Positions 3,640-17,773 of a stretch of 64,000 nt of DNA are shown one piece after another. Position 1 is the stretch's first letter; each line of letters opens with the position of its first letter. The stretch spans positions 248,001 to 312,000 of the forward strand of contig NZ_JARXRN010000016.1 of NCBI RefSeq assembly GCF_029888045.1, given 5' to 3'. The DNA is from Luteimonas rhizosphaericola (GTDB taxonomy: Bacteria > Pseudomonadota > Gammaproteobacteria > Xanthomonadales > Xanthomonadaceae). The notes under the pieces were generated by a model, which made no database searches, had not been told where the DNA came from, and worked only from the letters and a program-made list of their open reading frames with translations. Position numbers and translations under genes: made by a program.

Positions 3640-3681
3640 ATCTTCGATCGCACTCGCGCCGCGGGCGATGACATGGATCAA
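3640..3681 (-). promoter_or_regulatory. FNR-type promoter of nnrS
   Basis: Read on the minus strand: TTGAT-CCAT-GTCAT at 3681-3668 (consensus TTGAT-N4-ATCAA), then 22 nt, then -10-like GAAGAT at 3645-3640. The ATG of nnrS follows after 6 nt. The same 22-nt spacing occurs at four other boxes in this window. The box overlaps the last codons of the upstream DUF6522-like gene. Confidence 0.7.
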
Positions 3682-4004
3682 GCGGGATCGCGCCCGTCGC
3701 CGTGGCTGTGCCGGCCGCGCCGCTGCATCGGCCTGGGGAGGTCAGTCACCTCGCAGGAGTGCGGCTGCAGCGCGCCATCGCGATCGACCACCAGCCGCAC
3801 CCGCCGCTGGCCGTGATAGAAGCTGGCGCGGTACAGGCCGGCGTCGACGCCCGTCCCCCGTTCGCACAGCACGGCGATGCGATGCGTGTCCATCAGGCGC
3901 CGGAAGGCTTCGGGCGCGAGGCCGAGGCCGCGCGCCACCAGGGCCGCGTCGATCTCGACCTCGGGGGCGTCCGCCACGGCGATGGGAATGGTCCGGAGCG
4001 TCAT
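3678..4004 (-). CDS. Small DUF6522-like protein of the NO module
   Basis: 108 residues, soluble, starting MTLRTIPIAVADAPEVEIDA. It resembles the small DUF6522 proteins that accompany denitrification and NO-reductase genes; their function is unknown and my family call is from memory of the pattern. Features visible: a helix-rich N-terminal half with GLAPEAFRRLMDTHRI, a CERGTG turn, a YHGQRRVRLVVDRDG beta hairpin and a basic, His-containing tail. The frame extends upstream but ATG 4004 begins the conserved-looking part, 64 nt after the norB stop. Probably co-transcribed with norB; its 3' end overlaps the nnrS FNR box. Confidence 0.6.
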   Translation of the reverse strand: MTLRTIPIAVADAPEVEIDAALVARGLGLAPEAFRRLMDTHRIAVLCERGTGVDAGLYRASFYHGQRRVRLVVDRDGALQPHSCEVTDLPRPMQRRGRHSHGDGRDPA

Positions 4005-4068
4005 CCTGGTGTCCGTTTGCGGGCGCGCGCGGCGCCGTCCCCGATGCGGGAGCGCCGTCCGTCCCTGC

Positions 4069-6354
4069 TCAGGCCGCCGCCTCGGCCGCGTCGACCGTCG
4101 CCGGCGCGGGCACCGCAAGGCGCGGCGCGATCCACAGCCGCAGCATGAACCACGCCAGCGCCAGCGCGCCCACGCTGAAGATCGTGTCGCCCGGCACGCG
4201 CAGCCACACCAGCAGGTCGATCAGCGGCTGCTGCATGAACTCGGCCGAACGCGCGTACCAGTAGCCGTGCGTCAGCGCCGCGCGCAGCTGCAGGATGCCG
4301 ATCGGCAGCAGGGTCAGCAGCGCCATCCCGGCCAGGCCGATGTTGAAGGCCCAGAACGAGAGCTTCAGCGCGCCCTCGTTCCACTGCGCCTCCGGCCTGA
4401 TCCCGCGCAGGCAGAACAGCATCAGCCCCACGCCGAGCATCCCGTACACGCCGAACAGCGCGGTATGTCCGTGCAGCGGCGTCAGGTTCAGGCCCTGCAT
4501 GTAGTACAGCGGCAGCGGCGGATTGATCAGGAAGCCGAACAGCCCCGCGCCGACCAGGTTCCAGAACGCCACGGCGATGAAGAACATGATCGGCCAGCGG
4601 TACCTGGCCATCCAGGGCGTGGCCTTGCCCAGCTTGTAGCTCTGGTAGGCCTCGAAGCCGACGTAGGCCAGTGGCACCACCTCCAGCGCCGAGAAGCTCG
4701 CGCCCAGCGCGATCACCGCCGTGGGCGTGCCGGTGAAGTACAGGTGGTGCAGGGTGCCGAGCACGCCGCCGGCGAGGAACACGATGGTGGCGAACAGCAC
4801 CGCGATGGTCGCGGACTTCACCTGCAGCAGCCCCAGCCGGGTGAACAGGAAGGCGATCACCGCCACCGCGAACACCTCGAAGAAGCCCTCCACCCACAGG
4901 TGCACCACCCACCAGCGCCAGTACTCGACCATCGACAGGTGGGTGTGCTCGCCCCACATCAGCCCGGCCGCGTAGAAGATGCCGATCGCCACCACCGACA
5001 GGAACAGCAGGCTGACGATCGACTTCGATTCGCCGCCGCCACGGATCGCCGGCCACAGCGCGCGGCCGACCAGGGTGAGCCACAGGATCAGCCCGACGAA
5101 CAGGAACCACTGCCAGAAACGGCCGATGTCTACGTATTCCCAGCCCTGGTGGCCGAACCAGAAGTTGTGCGCCAGCCCCAGTTTCTGCATCACCGCGAAC
5201 CACTGGCCGGCGAAAGATCCCACCACGATCACCAGCAGGCAGGTCCAGAGCACGTTCACGCCCAGCCGCTGGAACCGTGGCTCGTGCCCGGAGATCGCCG
5301 GCCCGATGTACAGGCCCATGCCCAGCCACGCGGTGGCGATCCACAGCACCGCCAGCTGCGTGTGCCAGGTGCGGGTGAGCGAGTACGGAAGGATGTCCGC
5401 CAGCGCGAAGCCGTAGGCTTCCTGGCCCTCGACCTGGTAGTGCGCGGTGGTCGCGCCGAGCAGGATCTGCACCAGGAACAGCGCCATCACCACCCAGAAG
5501 TACTTCGCGGTGGCGCGCATCGACGGCGTGATCGTGATGTTCGCCAGCGGGTCGGACGCCGGCAGCACCGGCGCCATCTCGTCGCCGTGGCTGACCGCGT
5601 AGTGCCAGCCGAGCAGGCCGACGCCCGCGATCAGGAACAGCACGCTGAACACCGTCCACAGCAGCGCGCTGGGCGGCGGCGTGTTGCCGACCAGCGCGTC
5701 GGCGGGCCAGTTCGCGGTATAGCTGATCGCCTGGTCCGGGCGCTCGGTCACCTGCGACCAGGCGACCCACCAGAAGAACGCGGTGAGCGATTCGCGATGC
5801 GCCGGGTCGGCGACCGTGTCGTTGCGCATCGCGTAGGCCTCGCGCAGCGGGGCGGTCTCGGGCGCGTTGCCGAACAGGCTGGTGTAGTGCGCGGCCACCG
5901 CGGCGATGGCTGCGGCGCGGTCGGCACCGATGGTGATCGTGCCGGCTCCGGCGTTCCACGTGTTGGGCCGCAGCAGTGCCTGCACGCGCGCGGCGTAGGC
6001 CGCCTGCGTGGGCGCATCGAGCGCGCGATAGCCGTCGAGGCCATGTTCGCGCGCCGCCCATCCGTCCAGGATCGCCTCGGCCTCGCGATGCATCCAGTCC
6101 GCGCCCCAGTCCGGGGCGACGTAGGCGCCGTGGCCCCAGATCGAACCCAGCTGCTGGCCGCCGATCGACTGCCAGACCTGGCGGCCGCGTTCGATGTCCG
6201 CGCGGGTGAACACCACGGCACCGTCGGTGGTGACCACGCGCTCGGGCATCGGCGGCGCCTGCCGGTGCACCTCGCTGCCCACCCACAGCAGCACGGCGAA
6301 GGAGGCCACCAGCAGCAGCGCCAGGCCGGTCCAGAGCTTGCGTGTCGAATCCAT
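4069..6354 (-). CDS. norB: Quinol-dependent nitric oxide reductase (qNor)
   Basis: 761 residues, the size of single-subunit qNor rather than the shorter cNor catalytic subunit. An N-terminal helix is followed by a soluble domain with ERGRQVWQSIGGQQLGSIWG and DWMHREA, the heme-less cytochrome-c-like extension of qNor. The heme-copper-oxidase core then shows HLSMVEYWRWWVVHLWVEG, GTLHHLYFTG and LTPLHGHTALFGVYG, which hold the heme and FeB histidines. It reduces 2 NO to N2O with quinol electrons in the inner membrane. No nirK, nirS or norC is nearby, so detoxification is likelier than full denitrification. ATG 6354 is chosen because it begins the first membrane helix and lies about 22 nt after the predicted FNR-promoter start. 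Confidence 0.93.
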   Translation of the reverse strand: MDSTRKLWTGLALLLVASFAVLLWVGSEVHRQAPPMPERVVTTDGAVVFTRADIERGRQVWQSIGGQQLGSIWGHGAYVAPDWGADWMHREAEAILDGWAAREHGLDGYRALDAPTQAAYAARVQALLRPNTWNAGAGTITIGADRAAAIAAVAAHYTSLFGNAPETAPLREAYAMRNDTVADPAHRESLTAFFWWVAWSQVTERPDQAISYTANWPADALVGNTPPPSALLWTVFSVLFLIAGVGLLGWHYAVSHGDEMAPVLPASDPLANITITPSMRATAKYFWVVMALFLVQILLGATTAHYQVEGQEAYGFALADILPYSLTRTWHTQLAVLWIATAWLGMGLYIGPAISGHEPRFQRLGVNVLWTCLLVIVVGSFAGQWFAVMQKLGLAHNFWFGHQGWEYVDIGRFWQWFLFVGLILWLTLVGRALWPAIRGGGESKSIVSLLFLSVVAIGIFYAAGLMWGEHTHLSMVEYWRWWVVHLWVEGFFEVFAVAVIAFLFTRLGLLQVKSATIAVLFATIVFLAGGVLGTLHHLYFTGTPTAVIALGASFSALEVVPLAYVGFEAYQSYKLGKATPWMARYRWPIMFFIAVAFWNLVGAGLFGFLINPPLPLYYMQGLNLTPLHGHTALFGVYGMLGVGLMLFCLRGIRPEAQWNEGALKLSFWAFNIGLAGMALLTLLPIGILQLRAALTHGYWYARSAEFMQQPLIDLLVWLRVPGDTIFSVGALALAWFMLRLWIAPRLAVPAPATVDAAEAAA

Positions 6355-6382
6355 GTCGCGGGTCTCGTCGGGAGTCCGCGGC

Positions 6383-6424
6383 ATCGTCACGTGGCGCCGT
6401 CGCCGGCACCTTGACATGGGTCAA
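6383..6424 (-). promoter_or_regulatory. FNR-type promoter of norB
   Basis: Minus-strand TTGAC-CCAT-GTCAA at 6424-6411, a two-mismatch FNR-type palindrome, then 22 nt to -10-like GACGAT at 6388-6383. This predicts transcription start near 6376 and a leader of about 22 nt before ATG 6354. It lies between fnr and norB, so norB can be transcribed apart from hemN-fnr. Confidence 0.7.
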
Positions 6425-6437
6425 GCGGGGTCGGGAC

Positions 6438-7196
6438 TCACCCGCGCAGCACGTGGTGCGCCAGCGCGTCGAGCGCCGCGGGCTGCAGGATCTCCATGTC
6501 GCGACGCTCCACCCGCAGCACGCCCTCGTCCTGCAGCCGGCGCAGCACCCGGCTGACGGTTTCCGGCGCCAGGCGCAGGTAGTTGGCGATGTCGGTGCGG
6601 GCCATGGTCAGGCGCATGCGCGTGGCCGAGAAGCCGCGCTCGGCGAAGCGCCGCGACAGCAGCACCAGGAACGCCGCCAGGCGCTCGTCGGCGCTGAAGT
6701 TCCCCGCCAGCAGCGAGGCCTTGCCGATGTCCTGGCTGAGCAGGTTGAACAGGTGCCGCTGCAGCCCGGGCATGCGGCCGGCCAGCGTGGCCATCATCGG
6801 GAACGAGAACCGGCACAGCATCACCGTGTCCAGCGCCACCGCGTTGCAGGGATAGCGCGAGGTGGCGATGGCGTTGAGCCCGATCACCTCGCCCGGCAGG
6901 AAGAAGCCCAGCACCTGCTCGCGACCGCTGGCATCGGTGACATAGGTCTTGACCGTGCCCGCGCGGACGGCGGCGATGGCGTTGAACGGGTCGCCCTCGC
7001 GGAAGATGTGGTCGCCTTCGCGGAACGGGCCGACGTGCTCGACCAGCACGTGCAGGTCGCGCAGCTGGCCCTTGTCGTAGCCTTCGGCCAGGCACGCGGC
7101 CGAGAAGGCGCAGGTGCTGCAGAAGTGGAATTCGTCGCCGTCGTCCGCGATCGGCGTGCCCGACACCACCTTCAGTTCATGATCTCGCACGCGCAC
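6438..7196 (-). CDS. fnr: FNR/ANR-type oxygen-sensing transcription regulator
   Basis: 252 residues of the Crp/Fnr superfamily. Cysteines 26, 29 and 35 (FHFCSTCAFSAACL) plus C117 match the four [4Fe-4S] ligands of oxygen-sensing FNR. The cAMP-like barrel covers about residues 45-150. The C-terminal helix-turn-helix has APETVSRVLRRLQDEGVL, whose E-SR triad matches the FNR residues that read TTGAT half-sites, fitting the boxes seen at five promoters here. It lies 14 nt downstream of hemN on the same strand and is probably transcribed with it from an FNR-box promoter, giving feedback. I am confident of the family; ANR or Fnr are equivalent names. Confidence 0.93.
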   Translation of the reverse strand: MRVRDHELKVVSGTPIADDGDEFHFCSTCAFSAACLAEGYDKGQLRDLHVLVEHVGPFREGDHIFREGDPFNAIAAVRAGTVKTYVTDASGREQVLGFFLPGEVIGLNAIATSRYPCNAVALDTVMLCRFSFPMMATLAGRMPGLQRHLFNLLSQDIGKASLLAGNFSADERLAAFLVLLSRRFAERGFSATRMRLTMARTDIANYLRLAPETVSRVLRRLQDEGVLRVERRDMEILQPAALDALAHHVLRG

Positions 7197-7210
7197 CGCC
7201 CCGTTGCCAG

Positions 7211-8632
7211 TCAGATGGTCCGGGAATAGCGCGCTCCTTCACCCTGGTTCCCGAGATACCGGTCGAAACACATGGCGATGATACGCAACAGGGCCCGCCC
7301 GCGGGGCGTGGCGCGGATTCGCCCCGGCGGACACTGCACGAGGCCGTCGTCCTGCAGCGGCCGCAGCGCGGCCAGCGCGTCGCTGAAGTACTCTCCGAAG
7401 CGGATGCCGTAGGCCCTCTCCACCTTGCGCGTGTCGATCTCGCCCTGGCACATGAGCTGCTGGATGAGGTCGGCGCGAAGCACGTCGTCGCGGCCCAGCA
7501 CCAGGCCGCGCCAGATCGGCAGCCGGCCCTGGTCGAGCGCGATCTCCCACCCCGCCAGGTCGCGGTGGTTCTGGGTGAAGCTGTCGCCGACGTGGCTGAT
7601 CGCGCTGACGCCGAAGCCGACAAGGTCGGTCTGGGCGTGGGTGGTGTAGCCCATGAAGTTGCGATGCAGGCTGCCCTCGCGCTGGGCACGCGCCAGCTCG
7701 TCGCCCGGCAGGGCGAAGTGGTCCATGCCGATGTAGTCGTAGCCGGCCTCGCCCAGCCGCTCGACCGCGAGTTCCAGCAGGGCCAGCTTGGCCTCCGGGT
7801 CCGGCAGGTCCTCGTCGCGGATCTGCCGCTGGGCCTTGAACAGGCGCGGCATGTGCGCATAGCCGTAGATCGCCAGCCGGTCCGGGCGTGCGGCGATCAC
7901 GGTGTCCAGGGTGCGTCCGAAGCCTTCCAGCGTCTGCCTGGGCAGGCCGTAGATCAGGTCGACGTTGACCGAGCGCATGCCGAACCGCCGGCAGGCGTCG
8001 ATGATCGCGAGCGTCTCGTCCACGCCCTGTTCGCGGTTGATCGCCTGCTGGACCGCCGGGTCGAAGTCCTGCACCCCGAGGCTGGTGCGGTTGAAGCCGA
8101 TTGCCGAGAGCAGCCCGATGTCATCGGGGGTGACGAAGCGCGGATCGAGTTCGATCGAAATGTCGCGGTCGAGCGCGCCGCTGAAGCTGAAATGGCGCGC
8201 AAGGCTGCCCACCAGTTCGCCAAGCAGGCGGGGCGACAGGAAGTTGGGGGTGCCGCCGCCCAGGTGCAGCTGCACCACCTCGCGGTCGCGGTCGAACAGC
8301 GGCGCGACCAGGGCGATCTCGCGCTGCAGGCGGTCGAGGTAGATCCGGCCCTTCGCCTCGTCCCGGGTGATGATCCGGTTGCAGCCGCAGTAGAAGCACG
8401 GGCTCTGGCAGTACGGGATGTGCACGTACAGCGAGAGCTGTCGCGGGATGGGGTCGTCGTTGCTGCGCCGGGCGATGTCGCGGAAGTCCTCCTCGCCGAA
8501 CCCTTCCGCGAAATGCGGCGCGGTCGGATAGGAGGTGTAGCGCGGCCCGGGCCGGTCGTAGCGCCGCAGCAGCTCGGCGTCGAAGCGCCAGTTGCGCAGC
8601 GGCTGCACGGTGGGGGTGGTCGTCGTCTGCAT
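7211..8632 (-). CDS. hemN: Oxygen-independent coproporphyrinogen III dehydrogenase HemN
   Basis: 473 residues, normal for HemN. The radical-SAM cluster motif is C75-x3-C79-x2-C82 within YVHIPYCQSPCFYCGC, followed by the GGGTPNFL SAM-binding motif and the YGLPRQT region. The enzyme decarboxylates coproporphyrinogen III without O2 in the cytosol, supplying heme when oxygen is scarce, which suits the neighbouring cbb3 oxidase and NO reductase. It is divergent from ccoN with a 174-nt shared region holding two FNR boxes. The predicted -10 (8640-8645) ends 7 nt before ATG 8632 and no Shine-Dalgarno is present, so the mRNA may be leaderless. Confidence 0.96.
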   Translation of the reverse strand: MQTTTTPTVQPLRNWRFDAELLRRYDRPGPRYTSYPTAPHFAEGFGEEDFRDIARRSNDDPIPRQLSLYVHIPYCQSPCFYCGCNRIITRDEAKGRIYLDRLQREIALVAPLFDRDREVVQLHLGGGTPNFLSPRLLGELVGSLARHFSFSGALDRDISIELDPRFVTPDDIGLLSAIGFNRTSLGVQDFDPAVQQAINREQGVDETLAIIDACRRFGMRSVNVDLIYGLPRQTLEGFGRTLDTVIAARPDRLAIYGYAHMPRLFKAQRQIRDEDLPDPEAKLALLELAVERLGEAGYDYIGMDHFALPGDELARAQREGSLHRNFMGYTTHAQTDLVGFGVSAISHVGDSFTQNHRDLAGWEIALDQGRLPIWRGLVLGRDDVLRADLIQQLMCQGEIDTRKVERAYGIRFGEYFSDALAALRPLQDDGLVQCPPGRIRATPRGRALLRIIAMCFDRYLGNQGEGARYSRTI

Positions 8633-8639
8633 GGCGGGA

Positions 8640-8681
8640 AGTATCGGAGGGGTGCTGCCGGCCGGCCTTGACCCGGATCAA
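8640..8681 (-). promoter_or_regulatory. FNR-type promoter of hemN-fnr
   Basis: Minus-strand TTGAT-CCGG-GTCAA at 8681-8668, one mismatch to consensus, then 22 nt to GATACT at 8645-8640. ATG 8632 follows after 7 nt, with CCTCC/TCCCGCC sequence and no ribosome-binding site, implying a leaderless transcript. Confidence 0.75.
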
Positions 8682-8735
8682 GGCCGGCGATGCGGGCGGG
8701 AGGACGCACCCTTGCACGCGGGCCGCGGAACCGCG

Positions 8736-8777
8736 TTGATCTGGATCAACGACGCCCTGGGGGCATCCGCCTAACCT
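8736..8777 (+). promoter_or_regulatory. FNR-type promoter of the cco operon
   Basis: TTGAT-CTGG-ATCAA at 8736-8749 is a perfect FNR-type palindrome. A -10-like TAACCT lies at 8772-8777, after a 22-nt gap. Predicted start is near 8784, giving about 23 nt of leader with a GGAAGG/GGCAGG purine stretch before ATG 8807. Confidence 0.82.
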
Positions 8778-8806
8778 GCGCGGCATCCGGAAGGCGGGGC
8801 AGGTCC

Positions 8807-10282
8807 ATGCAGCAGGCGGCAACGACGTACAACGACAAGGTGGTGCGGCAGTTCGCGGTGATGACCGTGGTCTGGGGCATCGTCGGCATGCTGGTGGGCG
8901 TGGTGATCGCCGCCCAGCTGTACTGGCCCGACCTCACCCACGGCATCGAATGGCTCGGCTACGGCCGGCTGCGGCCGCTGCACACCAATGCGGTGATCTT
9001 CGCCTTCGGCGGCTGCGCGCTGATGGCCACCAGCCTGCACGTGGTGCAGCGCACCTGCCACGTGCGCCTGCTGTCGGACCGGCTGGCGGCCTTCGTGTTC
9101 TGGGGCTGGCAGGCGGTGATCGTGGCCGCCGCCGTCACCCTGCCGCTGGGCTGGACCCAGGGCAAGGAGTACGCGGAACTCGAATGGCCGATCGACATCC
9201 TGATCGCGGTGGTCTGGGTGGCCTACGCGGTGCTGTTCCTGGGCACGATCGCGGTGCGCAGGGTGCGCCACATCTACGTCGCCAACTGGTTCTACGCCTC
9301 GTTCATCATCGCGGTGGCGCTGCTCCACATCGTCAACAACATCTCGATGCCGGTCGCCGCGGGCAAGTCGTACAGCATCTACACCGGCGCGGTCGACGCC
9401 ATGGTGCAGTGGTGGTATGGCCACAACGCCGTCGGCTTCTTCCTGACCGCCGGCTTCCTGGGGATGATGTACTACTTCGTGCCCAAGCAGGCCGGGCGCC
9501 CGGTGTATTCGTACCGGCTGTCGATCGTGCACTTCTGGGCGCTGATCGCGGTGTACATGTGGGCCGGTCCGCACCACCTGCAGTACACCGCCCTGCCCGA
9601 CTGGGCGCAGTCGCTGGGCATGGTGTTCTCGCTGATCCTGCTCGCGCCCAGCTGGGGCGGCGCGATCAACGGCATCATGACCCTGTCGGGCGTGTGGCAC
9701 AAACTGCGCACCGACCCGATCCTGAAGTTCCTCATCGTCGCGATCAGCTTCTACATGATCGCCACGTTCGAGGGGCCGATGATGTCGATCAAGACGGTCA
9801 ATTCGCTTTCCCACTACACCGACTGGACCGTCGGCCACGTGCACGCCGGCGCGCTCGGCTGGGTGGCGATGATCTCGATCGGCTCGATCTACGCGCTGCT
9901 GCCGCGGCTGCTGGGCCTGCGCGAGATGTATTCGACGAAGTGGATCGACCTGCATTTCTGGCTGCACACCATCGGCGTGGTGCTGTACATCGCCTCGATG
10001 TGGATCGCCGGGGTGATGCAGGGCCTGATGTGGCGCGCCACCAACGACGACGGCACGCTCACCTACAGCTTCGTCGAGGCCCTCAACGCGACCTACCCCT
10101 ACTACCTGGTGCGCCTGCTCGGCGGCGTGGTGGTGCTGTCGGGCATGTTCCTGATGGCCTTCAACGTGTGGAAGACCTACCGCGCCGGCCAGGCGGTGGC
10201 GGCCGACCAGCCGGTGCTGGAACCCGATCCCTCACAGAGCCTGGCGCCGCTGGCGCAGGCGCGCGCAGGAGCGCAGGCATGA
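8807..10282 (+). CDS. ccoN: Cytochrome cbb3 oxidase catalytic subunit I
   Basis: 491 residues and twelve expected helices. Diagnostic residues: H59 in [10 protein letters not shown] (low-spin heme), H206 in YGHNAVGFF with H256/H257 in [10 protein letters not shown] (CuB ligands), and Y250, placed as the cross-linked tyrosine of cbb3 oxidases. [10 protein letters not shown] near residue 345 carries heme ligands of the last helices. It is the O2-reducing, proton-pumping subunit in the inner membrane, with high O2 affinity. ATG 8807 is preceded by a purine-rich site and an FNR promoter. Its TGA overlaps the ccoO ATG. Confidence 0.97.
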
Positions 10283-10908
10283 GCGAACACAACGCCCACG
10301 AGAAGGTCGAGAAGAACATCGGCCTGATGGCGGTGCTGATCGCGGTGGTGGTCTCGTTCGGCGGCCTGGCGGAGATCGTGCCGCTGATGTACCAGGCCGA
10401 GGCGATCGAGCCGCTGCCCGGGGTCGAGCCCTACCCGCCGCTTGAGCTGGCCGGCCGCGACGTCTACGTGCGCGAGGGCTGCTACAACTGCCACTCGCAG
10501 ATGGTGCGCACCCTGCGCTTCGAGACCGAGCGCTACGGCCACTACTCGCTGGCCGGCGAATCGGTGTACGACCGGCCGTTCCAGTGGGGTTCCAAGCGCA
10601 CCGGGCCGGACCTGGCCCGGGTCGGCGGCCGCTATTCGGACGACTGGCACCGCGTGCACCTGCTCAATCCGCGCGACGTGGTGCCCGAATCGAACATGCC
10701 CGCCTATCCGTGGCTGGCCGCACGCACCGTCGATCGCGACCAGGTGACGCGCAGCATGCGCGCGCTGCAGCGCATCGGCGATCCCTACAGCGACGAGCAG
10801 ATCGACGGCGCCGCGGAGGCGCTCGCCGGCAAGACCGAACTCGACGCCGTCGTGGCCTACCTGCAGGGCCTCGGCCGCCACGCACCGAAAGCCGGAGAAA
10901 CCCCATGA
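10279..10908 (+). CDS. ccoO: Cytochrome cbb3 oxidase monoheme subunit II
   Basis: 209 residues with one N-terminal membrane anchor (about residues 14-34) and a periplasmic cytochrome c domain. The single heme motif is C68-YN-C71-H72 in [20 protein letters not shown] near residue 137 supplies the axial Met. It passes electrons from CcoP to CcoN. Start ATG 10279 overlaps the ccoN stop (ATGA), and its own stop overlaps the ccoQ start, a pattern of translational coupling. Confidence 0.97.
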
Positions 10909-11045
10909 TCTCGGGAATCGTCACCGCCATCCTGCTGCTGTGCTTCCTGGGTGGCTGGATCTGGGCCTGGAGTCCGCGCCGCAAGCGCGATTTCGAGGAC
11001 GCCGCCCGCCTGCCGCTGGACGACGACCAGGAGCCGACGCGATGA
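10905..11045 (+). CDS. ccoQ: Cbb3 oxidase small subunit CcoQ
   Basis: 46 residues: one membrane helix ([20 protein letters not shown]) followed by a short charged cytoplasmic tail ([15 protein letters not shown]), the classic CcoQ/FixQ layout. It stabilises the cbb3 complex in other bacteria. Its ATG overlaps the ccoO stop and its TGA overlaps the ccoP ATG at 11042. Confidence 0.93.
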
Positions 11046-11983
11046 GCACCGGCTGGTCGTGGTACGTCATCGCCCTGGTGGTGCTCAACATCGCCGGCTG
11101 CGCCTGGCTGCTGTGGTGGACCGCGCGCCGCCGGCCCGGCGACCCGAAGCCGGAGGACACCAGCCACGTCTGGGACGGCGACATCACCGAGTACAACAAG
11201 CCGCTGCCGAAGTGGTGGATCAACCTGTTCTACATCACCATCGTCTTCAGCATCGGCTACCTGGTCTGGTATCCGGGCTTCGGCAACTTCGCCGGCGCCA
11301 GCGGCTGGACCTCCGCCGGCGCCCACGACGCCGAAAAGGCGCGCCGCGACCGCCAGCTGGAGGAAACCTTCGGGGTCTACGCCAACCAGCCGCTGCCGCA
11401 GCTGGCGGGCGATCCGCAGGCGATGGCATTGGGTCGCTCGATCTTCGCCAACACCTGCGCCGCCTGCCACGGCTCGTCCGCGCAGGGCGCGCCCGGCTAT
11501 CCGAACCTCACCGACGCCACCTGGAACTGGGGCGGCGATCCCGAGCGCATCCTGCAGACCGTGCTCGACGGCCGCGAGGGCGTGATGCCGCCGCTGGGCA
11601 CGGTGCTCGAAGGCATGGGCGGCGACGTCGCCATCACCCAGGCCGCGGCCTACGTGCGCGCGCTGCGCTCCGAGGACATCGAGGCCACGCTGCGCAACGA
11701 CTACATGGCCGCGCGCGGCAAGAAGTACTTCGACGGCCTGTGCGTGGCCTGCCACGGCCCCGACGGTCGCGGCAACACGGAGCTGGGCGCGCCGGACCTG
11801 ACCGTGCGCAACACGCTGTACCCCAACACCCTCGAGAGCATCCGCACCACCATCATCGAAGGCCGCCACGGGGTGATGCCCGCCCACCGCGCCCTGCTGG
11901 GCGAAACTCGCGCCCGGCTGGTGGCCGCGTACGTGTGGTCGCTGTCGAACGCCCCCGCCGGCGCGCCACCGGAACGGCAGTGA
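11042..11983 (+). CDS. ccoP: Cytochrome cbb3 oxidase diheme subunit III
   Basis: 313 residues. Two N-terminal membrane segments (about 6-26 and 58-78) flank a short loop with DITEYNKPLPKWW, conserved in CcoP. Two cytochrome c domains follow with C139-AA-C142-H143 and C234-VA-C237-H238; VMPP and VMPAH segments hold the Met ligands. It accepts electrons from the periplasmic carrier, possibly the azurin encoded at 17813, and feeds CcoO. The stop overlaps a GTG start of the next small gene. Confidence 0.97.
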   Translation: MSTGWSWYVIALVVLNIAGCAWLLWWTARRRPGDPKPEDTSHVWDGDITEYNKPLPKWWINLFYITIVFSIGYLVWYPGFGNFAGASGWTSAGAHDAEKARRDRQLEETFGVYANQPLPQLAGDPQAMALGRSIFANTCAACHGSSAQGAPGYPNLTDATWNWGGDPERILQTVLDGREGVMPPLGTVLEGMGGDVAITQAAAYVRALRSEDIEATLRNDYMAARGKKYFDGLCVACHGPDGRGNTELGAPDLTVRNTLYPNTLESIRTTIIEGRHGVMPAHRALLGETRARLVAAYVWSLSNAPAGAPPERQ

Positions 11984-12276
11984 CCGACTTCACCCAGCCA
12001 CGCTTCGACCATCCACCGCGTCCGCTGGCGCAGCGGATCGGCGCGATCGCGTGGCCGAGCTTCTTCACCGCCGGGGTGTGCACGATGGTGTTCTTCGCCT
12101 TCGTCGACCCGATCGCGCTGCGCGACCTCACCTTCCCCGGCCTGCCGGTCACGCGCGAGCTCGGCTACACGCTGGGCTTCTTCGTGTTCTGGCTGGCGAC
12201 GGCGGCCTCGAGCCTGTTCACCTGGATCCTGCTGCGCCCGGCGAGCCGCTTCAACCGCCCGCTGCCGCCGGAGTGA
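11980..12276 (+). CDS. Unknown two-helix membrane protein inside the cco operon
   Basis: 98 residues from GTG 11980, which overlaps the ccoP stop; no better ATG exists before the hydrophobic part. Two helices are visible, PSFFTAGVCTMVFFAFVDPI and LGYTLGFFVFWLATAASSLF, joined by a polar loop with DLTFPGLPVTRE, and a short basic tail. It is not CcoQ (already present), CcoH or CcoS. It is followed by ccoG after 4 nt, so it is co-expressed with the oxidase. I do not recognise a named family; an oxidase assembly or stability role is inferred only from position. Confidence 0.75.
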   Translation: MTDFTQPRFDHPPRPLAQRIGAIAWPSFFTAGVCTMVFFAFVDPIALRDLTFPGLPVTRELGYTLGFFVFWLATAASSLFTWILLRPASRFNRPLPPE

Positions 12277-12280
12277 CGCG

Positions 12281-13828
12281 ATGAGCCGGGACATCCCCAT
12301 CGACGTCGTCGACCCGGGCGGCGGTTCGCTGTACGTCAAGGAGCGCAAGGTCTACCCGCGCGACGTGAGCGGACGCTTCGACCGCCTGCGCGTGGCCGCG
12401 GTCGCCTGGCTGCTGGGGATGTTCTACCTGTTCCCGTGGCTGCGCTGGGACGGCCGCCAGGCGGTGCTGTTCGACCTGCCGGCGCGCAAGTTCCACGTCT
12501 TCGGCCTGACGTTCTGGCCGCAGGACTTCCTGTTCCTGGCCCTGCTGCTGATCATCGCCGCGCTGGCGCTGTTCTTCTTCACTGCTCTGGCCGGACGCCT
12601 GTTCTGCGGCTACGCCTGCCCGCAGACGGTGTGGACGGAGGTGTTCCTGTGGATGGAGCGCTGGACCGAGGGCGACCGGCCGAAGCGGATCAAGCTCGAC
12701 GCCGGGCCGTGGACGCGCGAGAAGCTGCTGCGCAAGGGCGCCAAGCACGCGCTGTGGATGGTGTTCGCGTTGTGGACCGGCTTCACCTTCGTCGGCTTCT
12801 TCACCCCGATCACCGACCTCGGCGCGCGCCTGGCCACCCTGTCGTGGGGCGGATGGGAAACGTTCTGGGTGCTGTTCTACGCCCTCGCCACCTGGGGCAA
12901 CGCCGGCTTCCTGCGCGAGCAGGTGTGCAAGTACATGTGCCCGTATGCGCGCTTCCAGAGCGCGATGTTCGACCGCAACACCCTGATCATCGCCTACGAC
13001 CCGCTGCGCGGCGAGCCGCGCGGCCCGCGCAAGCGCGGCCTGGCCAGCGTGCTCGAGCGCGCCCGCGGCCTGCTCGACCAGGCCACCGCGTACGACTACG
13101 TGTTCCGCGCCGGCCGGCATCCCTCCGCCGCCACCCAGGCCGCGCACGCCAAGGGCACGATCACCTGGGACGGCGACCTGGGCGAGGTGCAGCCGCTGCC
13201 GAAGTTCGCCTTCGAGCAGCTGGGCGACTGCATCGACTGCACCATCTGCGTCCAGGTCTGCCCCACCGGCATCGACATCCGCAACGGCCTGCAGTACGAG
13301 TGCATCGCCTGCGGCGCCTGCATCGACGCCTGCGACGCGGTGATGGACAAGATGGGCTACCCGCGCGGGCTGATCCGCTATTCGACGCAGAATGCGATCG
13401 ACGGCCGGCCGACGCGCGTGCTGCGGCCGCGGATCGTGGTCTACGGGCTGCTGCTGGCGGGCTTCATGGTCGCCTGGGCGGTGGGCGTGGGTACCCGCGC
13501 CGACCTGATCGTCGAGGCGCTGCGCGACCGCAACGCGCTGTATCGCGAGACCGCCGACGGCGCGGTGGAGAACGGCTACACCCTGAAGCTGGTGAACAAG
13601 GCCGATGCCGACCGGCGCTTCCGCATCGCGCTCGAGGACGCGCCGGGCCTGCAACTGCGCGACAATGCCGGTCTCGTGCAGGCGCCCGCGGGCGCCGTGG
13701 TGTCGATCCCGGTGACGGTGGTCGCACCCGGTGGCGCGAGCGGGCGCCGCGCGATCCGTTTCGTGGTCGAGAGCGAGGACGGCGCCGCCCGCGAAGTGGT
13801 CGACAGCAGTTTCTTCGGACCGATGTAG
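12281..13828 (+). CDS. ccoG: Cbb3 oxidase assembly protein CcoG (ferredoxin-like, RdxA/FixG)
   Basis: 515 residues. Several helices, a FCGYACPQTVWTEVFLWMER segment with the conserved CxxxCP, and two [4Fe-4S] ferredoxin motifs: CIDCTICVQVCPTGIDIRNG and ECIACGACIDACDAV. A C-terminal Ig-like periplasmic domain (about 400-515) follows a last helix. CcoG is a membrane cupric reductase supporting copper delivery to cbb3 oxidase in other proteobacteria. It starts 4 nt after the small unknown gene; its TAG is immediately followed by the ccoH ATG. Confidence 0.95.
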   Translation: MSRDIPIDVVDPGGGSLYVKERKVYPRDVSGRFDRLRVAAVAWLLGMFYLFPWLRWDGRQAVLFDLPARKFHVFGLTFWPQDFLFLALLLIIAALALFFFTALAGRLFCGYACPQTVWTEVFLWMERWTEGDRPKRIKLDAGPWTREKLLRKGAKHALWMVFALWTGFTFVGFFTPITDLGARLATLSWGGWETFWVLFYALATWGNAGFLREQVCKYMCPYARFQSAMFDRNTLIIAYDPLRGEPRGPRKRGLASVLERARGLLDQATAYDYVFRAGRHPSAATQAAHAKGTITWDGDLGEVQPLPKFAFEQLGDCIDCTICVQVCPTGIDIRNGLQYECIACGACIDACDAVMDKMGYPRGLIRYSTQNAIDGRPTRVLRPRIVVYGLLLAGFMVAWAVGVGTRADLIVEALRDRNALYRETADGAVENGYTLKLVNKADADRRFRIALEDAPGLQLRDNAGLVQAPAGAVVSIPVTVVAPGGASGRRAIRFVVESEDGAAREVVDSSFFGPM

Positions 13829-14329
13829 ATGGACGCACCACGACACAGGCCGTTCTGGAAGATGCCGATCATGTGGCTGGTGATCGGGCTGCCGCTGGCG
13901 TCGGTGGTCGCCGGCATCGCGCTGGTGACGATCGCCACCCGCAGCGGCGGCGCCGACGTGGTGCGCGACGACGTGCGCCGGGTGTCGCAGATCCAGACCG
14001 CCGACATCGGCCCAGATGCGCGGGCCCGCAGCCTCGGGCTGAGCGCGGTGCTGCGCACGGACGACGGCGTGCTCGAGGTCATCCCCGCCACCGGCGAGTA
14101 CGCGCGCACCGCGCCGCTGCGCCTGCTGCTGCAGCATCCCAGCCGCGAGGCGGACGACATCGAACTCGACCTCGCGCCCAGCACGACCGGCTGGCGGGCC
14201 GAGCGGACGCTCGACGCCAGTCACGACTGGGTGGTCCAGCTCGCGCCCGGCGACGGCGCCTGGCGCCTGCACGGGCGCCTGCCCCGCCAGCAGCACGCGA
14301 CGCGCCTGGCGCCGTCGCTGGCGCAGTAG
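13829..14329 (+). CDS. ccoH: FixH/CcoH-family cbb3 assembly protein
   Basis: 166 residues: one N-terminal helix (PIMWLVIGLPLASVVAGIAL) and a periplasmic beta-rich domain containing the SHDWVVQLAPGDGAWRLHGRL stretch typical of FixH. It assists assembly or stability of the cbb3 complex. The ATG abuts the ccoG stop codon; ccoI follows 35 nt downstream. Confidence 0.9.
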   Translation: MDAPRHRPFWKMPIMWLVIGLPLASVVAGIALVTIATRSGGADVVRDDVRRVSQIQTADIGPDARARSLGLSAVLRTDDGVLEVIPATGEYARTAPLRLLLQHPSREADDIELDLAPSTTGWRAERTLDASHDWVVQLAPGDGAWRLHGRLPRQQHATRLAPSLAQ

Positions 14330-14364
14330 CGGCCCGCCGTGCGCGGCCGATCCGCGACGCGCCG

Positions 14365-16794
14365 ATGCCGGCCATGACGTACCCCGCCTCGACCACCCTC
14401 GACACGGACGACGCGCGCGTCGCCGCCGCCAGTGCCCCCGCCTGCCACCACTGCGGCGAGCCGGTGCCGCGCGCGCCGTCGCAGCGCGTCACCGGCGACG
14501 ATGGCCAGCCCTACTGCTGCGACGGCTGCGCCGCGGCCGCGCGCTGGATCCGCGACGCCGACTTGGGCGACTACTACCGCCTGCGCACCGCCGCGGCCGC
14601 CGGCCGCGTCGGCACCGACGCCATCGACCTGTCGGTGTGGGACCGCGAGGACGTGCTGCGCGAGCACGCGCATCCGGTCGACGGCGGGCGCCGCATCACC
14701 CTGCTCACCGACGGCATGCGCTGCGCCGCCTGCGCCTGGCTGATCCAGAAGGCGCTAGCGCGCGAACCCGGGGTGCGCGAGGTGACCGCGAACGCGGTCA
14801 CCGGCCGCCTGCGGATCGACTGGGACCCGGCACGCACCCCGCTGTCGGCGGTGCTGCGGCGGCTGTCGTCGCTCGGCTACCGGCCCTACCTGGCCACCGG
14901 CGAGGCCCGCGAACGCGCCCGCATCGCCGAGCGCAACCGCTGGCTGCTGCGCCTGGGCGTGGCGGGCCTGGGCACCCTGCAGGCGATGATGCTGGCCGAG
15001 GCGCTGTACCTGGACTTCGACAACCAGATGCCGGCGGCCACGCGCGACTTCTTCCGCTGGATCGCGTTCCTGCTGTCCACGCCGGTGGTGTTCTACTCCG
15101 GATGGCCGTTCCTGTCGGGCATGTGGCGCGAACTGAGGATGCGCCACGTCGGGATGGATACGCTGATCGCGGGTTCCACCCTGCTCGCCTACTTCGCCAG
15201 CCTGGTCGAGACGCTGCGCGGCGGCGCGCACGTGTGGTTCGACGCCGCGGTGATGTTCGTGTTCCTGCTGCTGGCCGCGCGCATGCTCGAACAGCGCGCG
15301 CGCAACGTCGCCAGCGCCCAGGTCGATGCCCTGGCGCGGGCGCGCCCGGCGTTCGCCACCCGCGAGACCGCGGACGGGCGACGCGAAGCGGTGCCGGTGA
15401 CGGACCTGCGCGTGGGCGACGTGGCCTGCGTGGCCGCCGGCGAGCCGGTGCCGGCGGACGGCCAGCTGCTCGGCGACGGCGCGTGGCTGGAGGAATCGCT
15501 GCTCACCGGCGAGGCGGGCGCCGTGCGCAAGCTGGCCGGCGACGCGGTCTACGCCGGCACCGTCAACCGCGAAGCGCCGGCGCGGCTGCGCGTGACCGGG
15601 ACCGGCCCGCAGACGCGGCTGTCCCAGCTCACCCGGCTGGTCGAGGAAGCGCAGTCGCACCGGCCCGCGCTCGCGCGCGCGGCGGACCGGGTCGGCGGCC
15701 GCTTCGTGGTGGGCCTGCTGTGCGTGGCCGCGCTGGTCTGGCTGGGCTGGCGCCTGCACGACCCGTCGCGCGCGTTCGAGGTGACGCTCGCGCTGCTGGT
15801 GATCAGCTGCCCCTGCGCGCTGTCGCTGGCGGTGCCGACCGCGCTCGCCACCGCGCATGGCGCGCTCGCCCGCGCGGGCGTGCTGGCCACGCGCGCCGAC
15901 GCGCTCGATACCCTCGCCGGCGCGACCGACCTGGTGTTCGACAAGACCGGGACACTCAGCGACGAGCGCCCGGGGCTGGCCGACGTCTCCACGTTCCACG
16001 GCGTGTCCCGCGACGATGCCCTGGCGATCGCGGCGGCGCTCGAATGCGACGCGGGCCACCCGATCGCGGCCGCGTTCGCGCGCGCCGACGCCGGCCTGCC
16101 GGTGTCCGCGGTGCGCACCGTGCCGGGCCTGGGCGTCGAGGGCCTGGTCGCGGGCCGCGCCTGGCGGTTGGGCCAGGCGGGCTTCGCCTGCGCCGGCGAT
16201 GACGACGGTGCGCTGTGGCTCGGCGACGGCCGCATGGCGGTCGCCCGCTTCGAACTGCGCGAAGCCCTGCGCCCCGACGCGGCCGACGCGGTGCATGCGC
16301 TGCGCTCGCTCGGGCTGCGGCTGCACCTGTGCAGCGGCGATGCGCCGGCGCCGGTCCGGGCGGTCGGCGATGCCCTCGGCATCGAGGCCGTGCACGCGCG
16401 CCAGCGCCCGGAGGACAAACTTGCGATGGTGCGCGCGCTCCAGGCCCAGGGACGCGTGGTCGCCATGGTCGGCGACGGCCTGAACGATGCCCCCGTGCTG
16501 GCCGGCGCCGACGTGTCGCTGGCGATGGATCGCGGCGCGGCGCTGGCGCAGCGTGCCGCCGACCTGGTGATGACCGGGCCGACCCTGCTGCGGATTCCCG
16601 CCGCAGTCGCGCTCGCGCGCCGCACCCGGCGCGTGGTGCGACAGAATTTCGGCTGGGCGCTGGGCTACAACCTGGTGGCGGTGCCACTGGCCGCGGCCGG
16701 GCTGGTCACGCCCTGGATCGCCGCGCTGGGCATGGCCGGCTCGTCGCTGGTGGTGACGCTCAACGCGCTGCGCCTGGCGCGGAGCACGCCATGA
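14365..16794 (+). CDS. ccoI: CcoI/FixI-type copper-exporting P-type ATPase
   Basis: 809 residues of a P1B ATPase. An N-terminal Cys-rich zinc-ribbon-like part (CHHCGEPVP, YCCDGC) is typical of CcoI and absent from ordinary CopA. A metal-binding domain has C120-AA-C123 (GMRCAACAWLI). The ion-path motif is C482-P-C484, the phosphorylation site D526 in DKTGTLS, and the hinge GDGLNDAPVLAGADVS. It moves Cu into the periplasm for the CcoN active site. ATG 14365 is taken; ATG 14374 is close by. The stop overlaps the ccoS ATG. Confidence 0.95.
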   Translation: MPAMTYPASTTLDTDDARVAAASAPACHHCGEPVPRAPSQRVTGDDGQPYCCDGCAAAARWIRDADLGDYYRLRTAAAAGRVGTDAIDLSVWDREDVLREHAHPVDGGRRITLLTDGMRCAACAWLIQKALAREPGVREVTANAVTGRLRIDWDPARTPLSAVLRRLSSLGYRPYLATGEARERARIAERNRWLLRLGVAGLGTLQAMMLAEALYLDFDNQMPAATRDFFRWIAFLLSTPVVFYSGWPFLSGMWRELRMRHVGMDTLIAGSTLLAYFASLVETLRGGAHVWFDAAVMFVFLLLAARMLEQRARNVASAQVDALARARPAFATRETADGRREAVPVTDLRVGDVACVAAGEPVPADGQLLGDGAWLEESLLTGEAGAVRKLAGDAVYAGTVNREAPARLRVTGTGPQTRLSQLTRLVEEAQSHRPALARAADRVGGRFVVGLLCVAALVWLGWRLHDPSRAFEVTLALLVISCPCALSLAVPTALATAHGALARAGVLATRADALDTLAGATDLVFDKTGTLSDERPGLADVSTFHGVSRDDALAIAAALECDAGHPIAAAFARADAGLPVSAVRTVPGLGVEGLVAGRAWRLGQAGFACAGDDDGALWLGDGRMAVARFELREALRPDAADAVHALRSLGLRLHLCSGDAPAPVRAVGDALGIEAVHARQRPEDKLAMVRALQAQGRVVAMVGDGLNDAPVLAGADVSLAMDRGAALAQRAADLVMTGPTLLRIPAAVALARRTRRVVRQNFGWALGYNLVAVPLAAAGLVTPWIAALGMAGSSLVVTLNALRLARSTP

Positions 16795-17009
16795 GGATCC
16801 TGCTGCTGCTGGTGCCGATCAGCCTGGTGCTGCTGGGGCTGGCGGTGTGGGCGTTCGTGTGGGCGGTGCGGCGTGGCCAGTTCGACGATCTGGACACGCC
16901 GGCGCTCGACATCCTCACCGACGACGACGACGCGCCGCGCCGTCCACCGACGCGCACGGGCCCTTCACCGTCGTCTCCGACCGACGGCCGGACGCGCGAT
17001 GCCGGTTGA
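16791..17009 (+). CDS. ccoS: Cbb3 oxidase maturation protein CcoS
   Basis: 72 residues: one N-terminal helix (ILLLLVPISLVLLGLAVWAF) followed by FVWAVRRGQFDDLDTPALDI, the hallmark of CcoS/FixS, then an acidic patch and a Pro/Thr/Ser-rich tail. Needed for cofactor insertion into cbb3 oxidase in other bacteria. It overlaps ccoI at the 5' end by 4 nt and the next gene by 11 nt. Confidence 0.93.
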   Translation: MRILLLLVPISLVLLGLAVWAFVWAVRRGQFDDLDTPALDILTDDDDAPRRPPTRTGPSPSSPTDGRTRDAG

Positions 17010-17721
17010 CTGGCTGGTGCTGCTGGCCGCGCTCACCGCCGGGCTGCTTGGCGGGCTCCACTGCGCGGCGATGTGCGGCGGGATCGCGACCGGCCTGTCG
17101 GCGACCGCCCCCGGCGGCGGCTGGGCCGGCGCGCTGCAGCTCAATCTCGGCCGCATCGGCGGCTACGCGCTGGCGGGGCTCGCGGTGGGCGCGTTCGGCC
17201 ACGGGCTGGTGTCGCTGCTCGCCGATCCCTGGCTCGGGATCGCCCTGCGCACGCTGGCAGGGGCGGCGCTGGTGGTGGTCGCGCTGCGGCTGCTCGGCGT
17301 GCGCGCACTGCCCGGGTTCCTGTCGCGCCCCGGGACCCGCGCCTGGGCCTGGCTGCGCCCGCTGCAGCGGCGCCTGCTGCCGGCGGACACCCTGCCGCGG
17401 CGGCTCGGCATCGGCGCCCTCTGGGGCTGGCTGCCCTGCGGACTGAGCTTCAGCCTGCTGACGGTGGCCTGGCTGCAGGCCCACCCGCGCAACAGCGCAC
17501 TGACCATGCTCGCGTTCGGACTCGGCACGCTGCCGGTGATGCTGCCGCTGACCTGGTCGGGCCAGCGCATTGGCGGCTGGCTGCAGCGCCCACGGCTGCG
17601 CACCGCGGCCGCGCTGCTGGTGCTGGCGCTGGGACTGCTTGCGATCGCCGCGCCCTGGCTGATGCGCGTGCCCGCGCTGCACGGCGTGCTGGCGGCGCTG
17701 GGCTGCCGGCCGCTGCCGTGA
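16999..17721 (+). CDS. SafE/TauE-like (DsbD_2 type) membrane protein of the cco operon
   Basis: 240 residues with six or so helices. The N-terminal GLLGGLHCAAMCGGIATGL motif, with paired Cys in a membrane segment, marks the sulfite-exporter TauE/SafE-like branch that commonly closes cco clusters; GWLPCGLSFSLLTVAW is the matching motif in the second half. Role is unproven; copper or thiol handling for oxidase assembly is a reasonable inference from the four conserved Cys and the location. ATG 16999 lies inside the ccoS tail; no ATG nearer the helix exists. Confidence 0.82.
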   Translation: MPVDWLVLLAALTAGLLGGLHCAAMCGGIATGLSATAPGGGWAGALQLNLGRIGGYALAGLAVGAFGHGLVSLLADPWLGIALRTLAGAALVVVALRLLGVRALPGFLSRPGTRAWAWLRPLQRRLLPADTLPRRLGIGALWGWLPCGLSFSLLTVAWLQAHPRNSALTMLAFGLGTLPVMLPLTWSGQRIGGWLQRPRLRTAAALLVLALGLLAIAAPWLMRVPALHGVLAALGCRPLP

Positions 17722-17731
17722 GCCGCGCCGG

Positions 17732-17773
17732 GTGATCCAGGTCAAGACGCGCGCGGGCCAGGTGCGCGACAAT
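17732..17773 (+). promoter_or_regulatory. FNR-type promoter of azurin gene
   Basis: GTGAT-CCAG-GTCAA at 17732-17745, two mismatches to the FNR consensus, then 22 nt to -10-like GACAAT at 17768-17773. Predicted start is near 17780, with a GGAG ribosome-binding site at 17803-17806 before ATG 17813. Gives azurin its own promoter 10 nt after the cco operon ends. Confidence 0.68.

Follow-up and report, generated by a model that had tools for sequence, protein, structure and literature searches.

Probable class II FNR-type promoters with a fixed 22-nt spacing and predicted leaderless hemN and nnrS mRNAs in Luteimonas rhizosphaericola

The window analyzed here is a 64,000-nt stretch of the Luteimonas rhizosphaericola genome (contig NZ_JARXRN010000016.1, 248,001-312,000, assembly GCF_029888045.1), with a G+C content of 71.9%. 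It carries hemN, an fnr-type regulator gene, norB, a DUF6522 gene and nnrS on one strand, and ccoN and an azurin-like gene on the other (Table 1). The norB product had no NCBIfam match. The name ccoN presumably applies, as we took it from the gene order and the list of open reading frames (ORFs), while the Pfam match itself is PF00115.

Table 1. Genes, FNR-type boxes and minus-10-like hexamers in the window
Feature	Position	Strand	Remark
nnrS; predicted leaderless mRNA	2401..3633	-	Pfam PF05940; A of ATG is the predicted +1
nnrS minus-10-like hexamer GAAGAT	3640..3645	-	followed by 6 nt, then ATG at 3633
nnrS FNR-type box, TTGATCCATGTCAT	3668..3681	-	box and hexamer in 22/31 nnrS sequences
DUF6522 gene between norB and nnrS	3678..4004 (start codon estimated)	-	PF20132, queried as 3678-4028
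norB, single-subunit nitric oxide reductase; leadered class II promoter	4069..6354	-	PF22085 and PF00115
norB minus-10-like hexamer GACGAT	6383..6388	-	ATG at 6354 after 28 nt
norB FNR-type box, TTGACCCATGTCAA	6411..6424	-	box and hexamer in 39/39 norB sequences
fnr-type regulator gene, directly behind hemN, between hemN and norB	6438..7196	-	CX2CX5C and ETVSR
hemN, oxygen-independent coproporphyrinogen III oxidase; predicted leaderless mRNA	7211..8632	-	TIGR00538 above cut-off
hemN minus-10-like hexamer GATACT	8640..8645	-	followed by 7 nt, then ATG at 8632
hemN FNR-type box, TTGATCCGGGTCAA	8668..8681	-	class II promoter in 76/81 hemN sequences
ccoN FNR-type box, TTGATCTGGATCAA	8736..8749	+	class II promoter in 9/9 ccoN sequences
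ccoN minus-10-like hexamer TAACCT	8772..8777	+	ATG at 8807 after 29 nt
ccoN, cbb3 oxidase subunit I; leadered	8807..10282	+	PF00115
azurin FNR-type box, GTGATCCAGGTCAA	17732..17745	+	class II promoter in 3/4 azurin sequences
azurin minus-10-like hexamer GACAAT	17768..17773	+	ATG at 17813 after 39 nt
azurin-like copper protein gene; leadered	17813..18268	+	PF00127

A previous sequence-only reading had proposed five boxes of the form TTGAT-N4-ATCAA, each with a hexamer carrying A at position 2 and T at position 6 (NANNNT) exactly 22 nt downstream. We found all five boxes in place, with no mismatch at ccoN (8736), one at hemN (8668) and two each at nnrS (3668), norB (6411) and azurin (17732). In gene orientation, the hexamers GAAGAT, GACGAT, GATACT, TAACCT and GACAAT do lie at this distance. 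The same reading had argued that so fixed a spacing is hard to obtain by chance, and the counts agree: NANNNT, whose probability in the window is 0.019, was found in 5/5 boxes at 22 nt but in 0/5 at any of the remaining spacings between 8 and 40 nt. The window's 20 other boxes (≤2 mismatches) gave 0/40 orientations with NANNNT at 22 nt. The ccoN box has a second such hexamer, AAGGGT, 22 nt away on its antisense (-) side and pointing towards hemN.

The genome-wide check of this box-22-NANNNT model gave a similar result, since 8/10 exact TTGAYN4RTCAA boxes of the strain's own genome matched on at least one side, against a chance expectation of about 0.4 (10 boxes, 2 sides, 0.019). We then counted oriented boxes in a set of 80 related loci that excludes the window and comes largely from the family of the source. 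Exact boxes had NANNNT at 22 nt in 121/259 cases, with 17 at 21 nt, 9 at 23 nt and 1-11 elsewhere; boxes with one outer mismatch had it in 73/227, with 1-17 at other spacings. Counted as physical sites with the window included, 112/132 exact boxes had the hexamer at this 22-nt distance on one side or both (12 on both, 20 on neither). Control palindromes (reversed, TTGTY, TTCAY) had 4 sites each, too few for a spacing control. NANNNT is a loose pattern with only two fixed bases, but the spacing profiles in the window (none at the 32 other spacings) and in the 80 related loci rule out chance or the reader's selection of boxes and hexamers as the source of the 22-nt match, an explanation we regard as virtually impossible.

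With a 14-bp box lying 22 nt from the minus-10 hexamer, the box centre falls at −41.5 relative to the predicted start, which is the class II FNR position. To score this arrangement per gene, we allowed ≤2 box mismatches and a gap of 21-23 nt. With the window included, it was found in norB 39/39, hemN 76/81, ccoN 9/9, nnrS 22/31 and azurin 3/4 sequences; the same rule matched 96/2000 random stretches of related loci, which may themselves include true promoters. The gap, the Fnr-type regulator encoded between norB and hemN, and the per-gene conservation together support the proposed class II activation as a prediction from sequence. The further proposal of one regulon for heme synthesis, cbb3 oxidase, azurin, NO reductase and NnrS also appears sound, its links to nnrS and azurin being the weakest. 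By the rule, 9/31 nnrS sequences had no promoter, and azurin was represented by 4 sequences only.

The Anr/FNR regulons of denitrifying proteobacteria count norB, hemN, cco and azurin among their targets, and both this target set and the box type are as in the window. The window differs from them in having fnr directly behind hemN, and in an nnrS with its own promoter, the box of which overlaps the 3' end of the DUF6522 gene. In Escherichia coli, 19/23 FNR-activated promoters with a known start are placed at −41.5 ± 4 (PMC3688515). The five boxes share the consensus and the inferred position with the E. coli class II promoters. Compared with these, the promoters of the window type keep a gap of 22 nt, with few of 21 or 23 nt in the related loci, and, unlike them, two of the window's five put the start codon at the predicted +1.

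The predicted activator is encoded within the locus. Fnr orthologues carry CX2CX5C in 44/44 and ETVSR in 43/44 cases, and a fourth Cys was found by regular expression in 37/44; the cluster that these cysteines would hold is putative. Against the NCBIfam FNR subfamily NF008365, its best family, the window's Fnr scored 192.7 bits, below the curated cut-off of 228, and we therefore call it an FNR-type regulator and not an NF008365 member. The fnr gene adjoins hemN directly downstream in 43/44 loci, and no box with <2 mismatches was found upstream of fnr in 45/45 sequences. Lying directly behind hemN without a good box of its own, fnr is probably driven by the hemN promoter too, which suggests, from gene order and box content, that fnr activates itself in a positive loop.

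The boxes, at least those of norB and nnrS, might instead be used mainly by another CRP/FNR regulator, either the second FNR-like protein of this genome (L001) or a Dnr-type nitric oxide sensor. L001 is FnrL/FixK-like (CX2CX7C and ETVSR), is encoded on the same contig about 54 kb from fnr and has the same recognition motif as Fnr. However, it is fnr itself that stands in the order hemN-fnr-norB in most loci holding these genes (43/44 and 31/37), and no third FNR-type protein was present among the five proteins translated (L001-L005) of eight Crp-domain matches. We consider this alternative somewhat unlikely; it would be compatible with leaderless mRNAs in any case.

Under the sequence-only reading's own rule, by which transcription starts 6-7 nt past the hexamer, +1 falls on the start codons of hemN and nnrS, a consequence that it had missed. 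The first in-frame ATG of hemN lies 6-8 nt past the hexamer in 74/76 of the class II promoters found, and that of nnrS in 20/22, so the transcript is predicted to start on the start codon or at most about two bases away from it. As exceptions, 5/81 hemN sequences had no class II promoter by the rule, while at two hemN promoters and at one for nnrS the ATG comes 26-30 nt past the hexamer, which makes them leadered. A Shine-Dalgarno (SD) match of ≥3 nt was absent before 55/76 hemN and 14/22 nnrS ATGs, the others (21/76 and 8/22) having an SD-like match of 3-4 nt. In the window, neither gene has AGG, GGA or GAG at −18 to −5.

We also asked whether the hemN start is correctly placed. In 46/74 sequences, no further ATG, GTG or TTG lies on the way from this ATG to the conserved GPRYTSYP, and in 0/74 does a 4-nt SD precede such a codon in that stretch. 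The G+C content by codon position is coding-like past the hemN ATG (0.70/0.49/0.83) and flat ahead of it (0.69/0.70/0.74); at the nnrS start this signal was uninformative. Among the leadered genes, an ATG at 6-8 nt was found in 0/39 norB and 0/9 ccoN promoters, and an SD match of ≥4 nt in 31/39 norB sequences; the leadered ccoN also has weak SDs, reaching ≥4 nt in only 2/9.

Across 199 class II sites, the hexamer-to-ATG distance, taken to the first ATG that opens an ORF of ≥100 aa, was bimodal, with 80 sites at 6-8 nt and 48 at 24-31 nt; in 26/199, no such ATG lay within 200 nt. We scanned 60 genomes of the family with the pattern Box-22-NANNNT-N5-8-ATG and obtained 83 matches in 47/60 genomes, against 0 for the reversed pattern. 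The N9-12 control gave 36 matches in 23/60 genomes (reversed pattern, 1); of these 36, 7 are almost identical copies of a single sequence and 4 are the second ATG of a site that N5-8 had already picked up. HemN accounted for 42 of the 83 ORF rows (41 of 81 distinct), a table that lists the hemN of the window and one nnrS twice and includes, as a 'HemN' row, a distant paralogue (L191, 24%). Another 36 rows were neither HemN, NnrS nor DUF6522, and 10 of those were <60 aa, presumably chance matches.

The predicted leaderless hemN form was present in five of the sampled families of the order, and it clusters on the HemN tree, with 3 changes against 14.7 in shuffles. This tree holds the best 50 HemN matches (11 of 61 genomes unrepresented, 20 rows under half filled); labels were set by hand, with six of the 50 rows unlabelled for an unclear or missing promoter, and branch support comes from SH-aLRT alone, after a brief search. 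A class-wide pattern scan matched at least 117/184 genomes. Many of these matches look AT-rich, the control pattern matches too, and HemN or NnrS made up 0 of 13 ORFs of ≥40 aa among the matches listed, so we make no claim beyond the order from it.

It is also conceivable that these are ordinary class II promoters only, with hemN and nnrS translated from longer transcripts of upstream promoters and their ATG lying close as a by-product of compact intergenic space. Such a longer transcript may exist, and the AAGGGT facing hemN at the ccoN box would be one candidate for its promoter. Yet a distance of 6-8 nt is kept in nearly all hemN promoters (74/76), most hemN starts (55/76) would have no SD even on a longer mRNA, and norB promoters, many of which share these loci, retain long leaders. 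We therefore regard this explanation as quite improbable. It is instead likely, judging from promoter geometry and start-codon position, that all five are class II FNR-activated promoters and that hemN and nnrS transcripts start at or near the ATG as leaderless mRNA.

We propose that oxygen-free Fnr would bind the box centred at −41.5 and contact RNA polymerase, which would engage the minus-10 element exactly 22 nt downstream. The norB, ccoN and azurin transcripts would carry ordinary leaders (ATG 28-39 nt past the hexamer), while the hemN and nnrS mRNAs, with 7 and 6 nt between hexamer and ATG and their +1 so placed, would be translated leaderless; the hemN promoter would drive fnr as well and close the loop. 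A stronger version holds that a fused transcription-translation module runs from the box through the 22-nt gap, the minus-10 and a further 6-7 nt to the ATG, and that FNR in this clade deliberately uses it to yield leaderless hemN-fnr and nnrS mRNAs. The proteins for heme synthesis, FNR and the response to NO would then be made by leaderless (70S-type) translation at low oxygen or on a rise in NO, leaving norB and cco to the ordinary route; we find this doubtful.

The window type shares with bacterial leaderless mRNAs the predicted +1 at the ATG and the lack of an SD before most hemN starts. It is set apart by its link to an activator-type class II promoter and by its conservation, for one orthologue, across many genera. 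An AUG at +1 is no guarantee of translation, as one gonococcal FNR-box transcript that begins with AUG went untranslated (PMC3032703). No paper describing a leaderless FNR or hemN message turned up, by title or abstract, among the matches listed in a search whose coverage leaves out most subscription papers.

Taken together, the regulon itself is ordinary, and it is the predicted leaderless architecture of hemN and nnrS that goes beyond the sequence-only reading. One practical caution is that start-calling methods relying on SD sequences may misplace starts of this type. The hemN orthologues also offer a natural comparison, as under the same FNR geometry some families of the order appear to have a leaderless hemN and other families a leadered one. 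If true, this conserved joining of promoter to start codon would tie a known oxygen switch to the choice of translation route.

The sequence-only reading had described five FNR-type boxes in the window, each followed by a minus-10-like hexamer exactly 22 nt downstream, which it took to be class II FNR promoters belonging to a single regulon, and all of these boxes and hexamers were recovered at their positions. In gene orientation, the hexamer NANNNT was found at 22 nt in 5/5 boxes and at no other spacing from 8 to 40 nt, the background rate of NANNNT in the window being 0.019. The 20 other boxes of the window with up to two mismatches had NANNNT at 22 nt in 0 of 40 orientations. We extended the scan to exact TTGAYN4RTCAA sites in the 3.9 Mb host genome, where the window is C8:248001-312000. 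Of the 10 sites found, 8 had NANNNT 22 nt away on one or both sides. The remaining two are the upstream box of a nitrite reductase pair, where only the box nearer the gene has the hexamer, and a box at C8:363236. At the box next to the CyoA-like gene, the 22-nt hexamer lies on the transporter side only, so this box may repress cyoA; the transporter ATG is 124 nt away.

FNR-type boxes and sites in the window, the host genome (G000; contigs C8 and C17) and related loci
Site	Position (strand)	Description	Hexamer to ATG (nt)
nnrS	window 3668-3681 (-)	class II box	6
norB	window 6411-6424 (-)	class II box	28
hemN	window 8668-8681 (-)	class II box	7
ccoN	window 8736-8749 (+)	class II box, two-sided	29
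azurin	window 17732-17745 (+)	class II box	39
L104		host class II site	
L105		host class II site upstream of gene for 421-aa protein (fragment without NCBIfam match)	
L106	G000:C8:240941 and 241002	pair of exact FNR boxes separated by 61 nt, upstream of copper nitrite reductase-like gene (gene fragment match)	38
L108	G000:C17:316611	exact box between metabolite transporter-like gene and CyoA-like quinol oxidase gene	
L109		host class II site upstream of gene matching alcohol dehydrogenases	
L088, L089, L100; L101	9447; 2920	two-sided boxes, one in each of four Stenotrophomonas loci	

To follow this geometry in relatives, we collected 80 loci by HemN search, mainly from Xanthomonadaceae/Lysobacteraceae genera, with a few genomes supplying two loci; the nearest relative by HemN was Luteimonas saliphila (88% identity). 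Across these 1.5 Mb, 121 of 259 oriented exact boxes had NANNNT at 22 nt, compared with 1 to 17 at each other spacing from 8 to 40 nt. Counted as physical boxes, window included, 112/132 had the 22-nt hexamer on at least one side and 12/132, all single symmetric boxes, on both, possibly representing divergent class II promoters with one common box. We then scored promoters under a looser rule (up to two box mismatches, gap of 21-23 nt) and a stricter rule (up to one mismatch, exactly 22 nt). Of 2000 stretches drawn at random from these loci, 96 fit the looser and 46 the stricter rule.

Class II promoters in related loci, window included
Gene	Looser rule (sequences)	Gap exactly 22 nt among these	Stricter rule
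norB	39/39	36	36
hemN	76/81	70	66
ccoN	9/9	7	7
nnrS	22/31	21	20
azurin	3/4	3	2

Pfam assigned the window genes as nnrS, norB, a Crp/Fnr regulator, hemN, a COX1-type oxidase subunit and an azurin-type copper protein, with a DUF6522 gene between norB and nnrS; judging from gene order, the COX1-type gene is presumably ccoN. The regulator contains CX2CX5C and ETVSR, motifs found in 44 and 43 of its 44 orthologues, and its best NCBIfam family is Fnr NF008365 (192.7 bits, under the cut-off of 228). About 54 kb from fnr on the same contig lies L001, which encodes a second FNR-like protein with CX2CX7C and ETVSR; because it is also encoded, we only infer the identity of the activator. The class II FNR reading of the boxes holds for their geometry and, so far as sequence tells, for their meaning. 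This much is ordinary, well-conserved biology; the class II position of the FNR box is treated in PMC3688515, and the box with its recognition residues in PMC4505428.

The less ordinary feature is the distance from hexamer to start codon. Transcription usually begins about 7 nt past the minus-10 hexamer. Since the hemN and nnrS ATGs lie 6-7 nt past theirs, both transcripts should start at the ATG or within one base of it, that is, they are predicted to be leaderless. Across the related loci, 74/76 hemN and 20/22 nnrS promoters had their first in-frame ATG 6-8 nt past the hexamer, a distance seen in 0/39 norB and 0/9 ccoN promoters. When all 199 class II sites were measured to the first ATG opening an ORF of at least 100 aa, the distance was 6-8 nt in 80 and 24-31 nt in 48, and 26 had no such ATG within 200 nt. 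The minus-10 sequence also sets leadered norB apart from leaderless hemN and nnrS: hexamer position 5 is A in 37/39 norB promoters versus C in 60/76 hemN and 19/22 nnrS promoters.

Judged by sequence, the ATG next to the hexamer is the true start of hemN. We take it as such because of its distance to the conserved GPRYTSYP core of HemN, which starts a median of 19 residues further on (range 16-33), the lack of a better start, codon-position G+C, and the scarcity of Shine-Dalgarno (SD) matches. Between this ATG and GPRYTSYP, 46/74 sequences had no other possible start codon, and an alternative start preceded by a 4-nt SD was found in 0/74. Codon-position G+C was flat upstream and coding-like downstream. 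Not even a 3-nt SD match preceded the ATG in 55/76 cases, the remaining 21 having 3-4 nt. An SD of at least 4 nt was present before the norB ATG in 31/39 promoters, but before the ccoN ATG in just 2/9, which is weaker evidence. For nnrS, the codon-position signal was uninformative, and the leaderless assignment is suggested by the geometry and by 14/22 promoters without an SD match.

We scanned 60 genomes of the family for box-22-NANNNT-N5-8-ATG and obtained 83 matches in 47 genomes, and none with the reversed pattern; with the ATG at 9-12 nt as a control, there were 36 matches in 23/60 genomes and one with the reversed pattern. A set of 83 ORFs (81 distinct) lying behind such sites comprised 42 HemN, 4 NnrS, 1 DUF6522 and 36 others, 10 of which are shorter than 60 aa. 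Among these others, six alike small proteins of 134-140 aa, from six genomes (L153, L167, L172, L175, L193, L198), have a signal-peptide-like start and Cys/His-rich stretches; a fragment of L172 had no NCBIfam match. PdxH-like (L125, L156) and tryptophan 2,3-dioxygenase-like (L163, L195) genes also lie behind such patterns, and one of each kind (L125, L163) was checked by means of a fragment.

At the level of the order, 48 of the 50 best-scoring HemN sequences among 61 genomes had a looser-rule class II promoter, 41 of them with exactly 22 nt. Among these 50, the leaderless distance occurred in families f1, f150, f151, f159 and f160, of which f151 and f159 are mixed (one leadered sequence in f159, several ambiguous or promoterless ones in both). 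In f153 to f158, hemN starts 14-46 nt past the hexamer, where callable. On a HemN tree labelled with 24 leaderless and 20 leadered sequences (6 unlabelled), the trait required 3 changes, versus a mean of 14.7 in 500 shuffles, none of which was as low; gain and loss are indistinguishable here.

Within a literature covered incompletely, we recognised no account of leaderless FNR or hemN messages. Leaderless candidates have been reported in B. japonicum by PMC4842269, which points out that specific promoters for genes of this type are not described. According to PMC3032703, a gonococcal transcript that begins with AUG and has its FNR box at -41.5 went untranslated in a fusion, which is a reason for caution.

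What we regard as the new element is that the promoters of hemN and nnrS are conserved in a predicted leaderless form. fnr lies behind hemN on the same strand in 43/44 loci (nominal gap 11-56 nt), followed by norB in 31/37 and, after norB, by nnrS in 20/28, and a box with fewer than two mismatches was found in 0/45 fnr upstream regions. Since fnr adjoins hemN and has no near-perfect box of its own, the two genes are most simply read as sharing one transcript made from the predicted leaderless FNR promoter of hemN, through which fnr would positively autoregulate.
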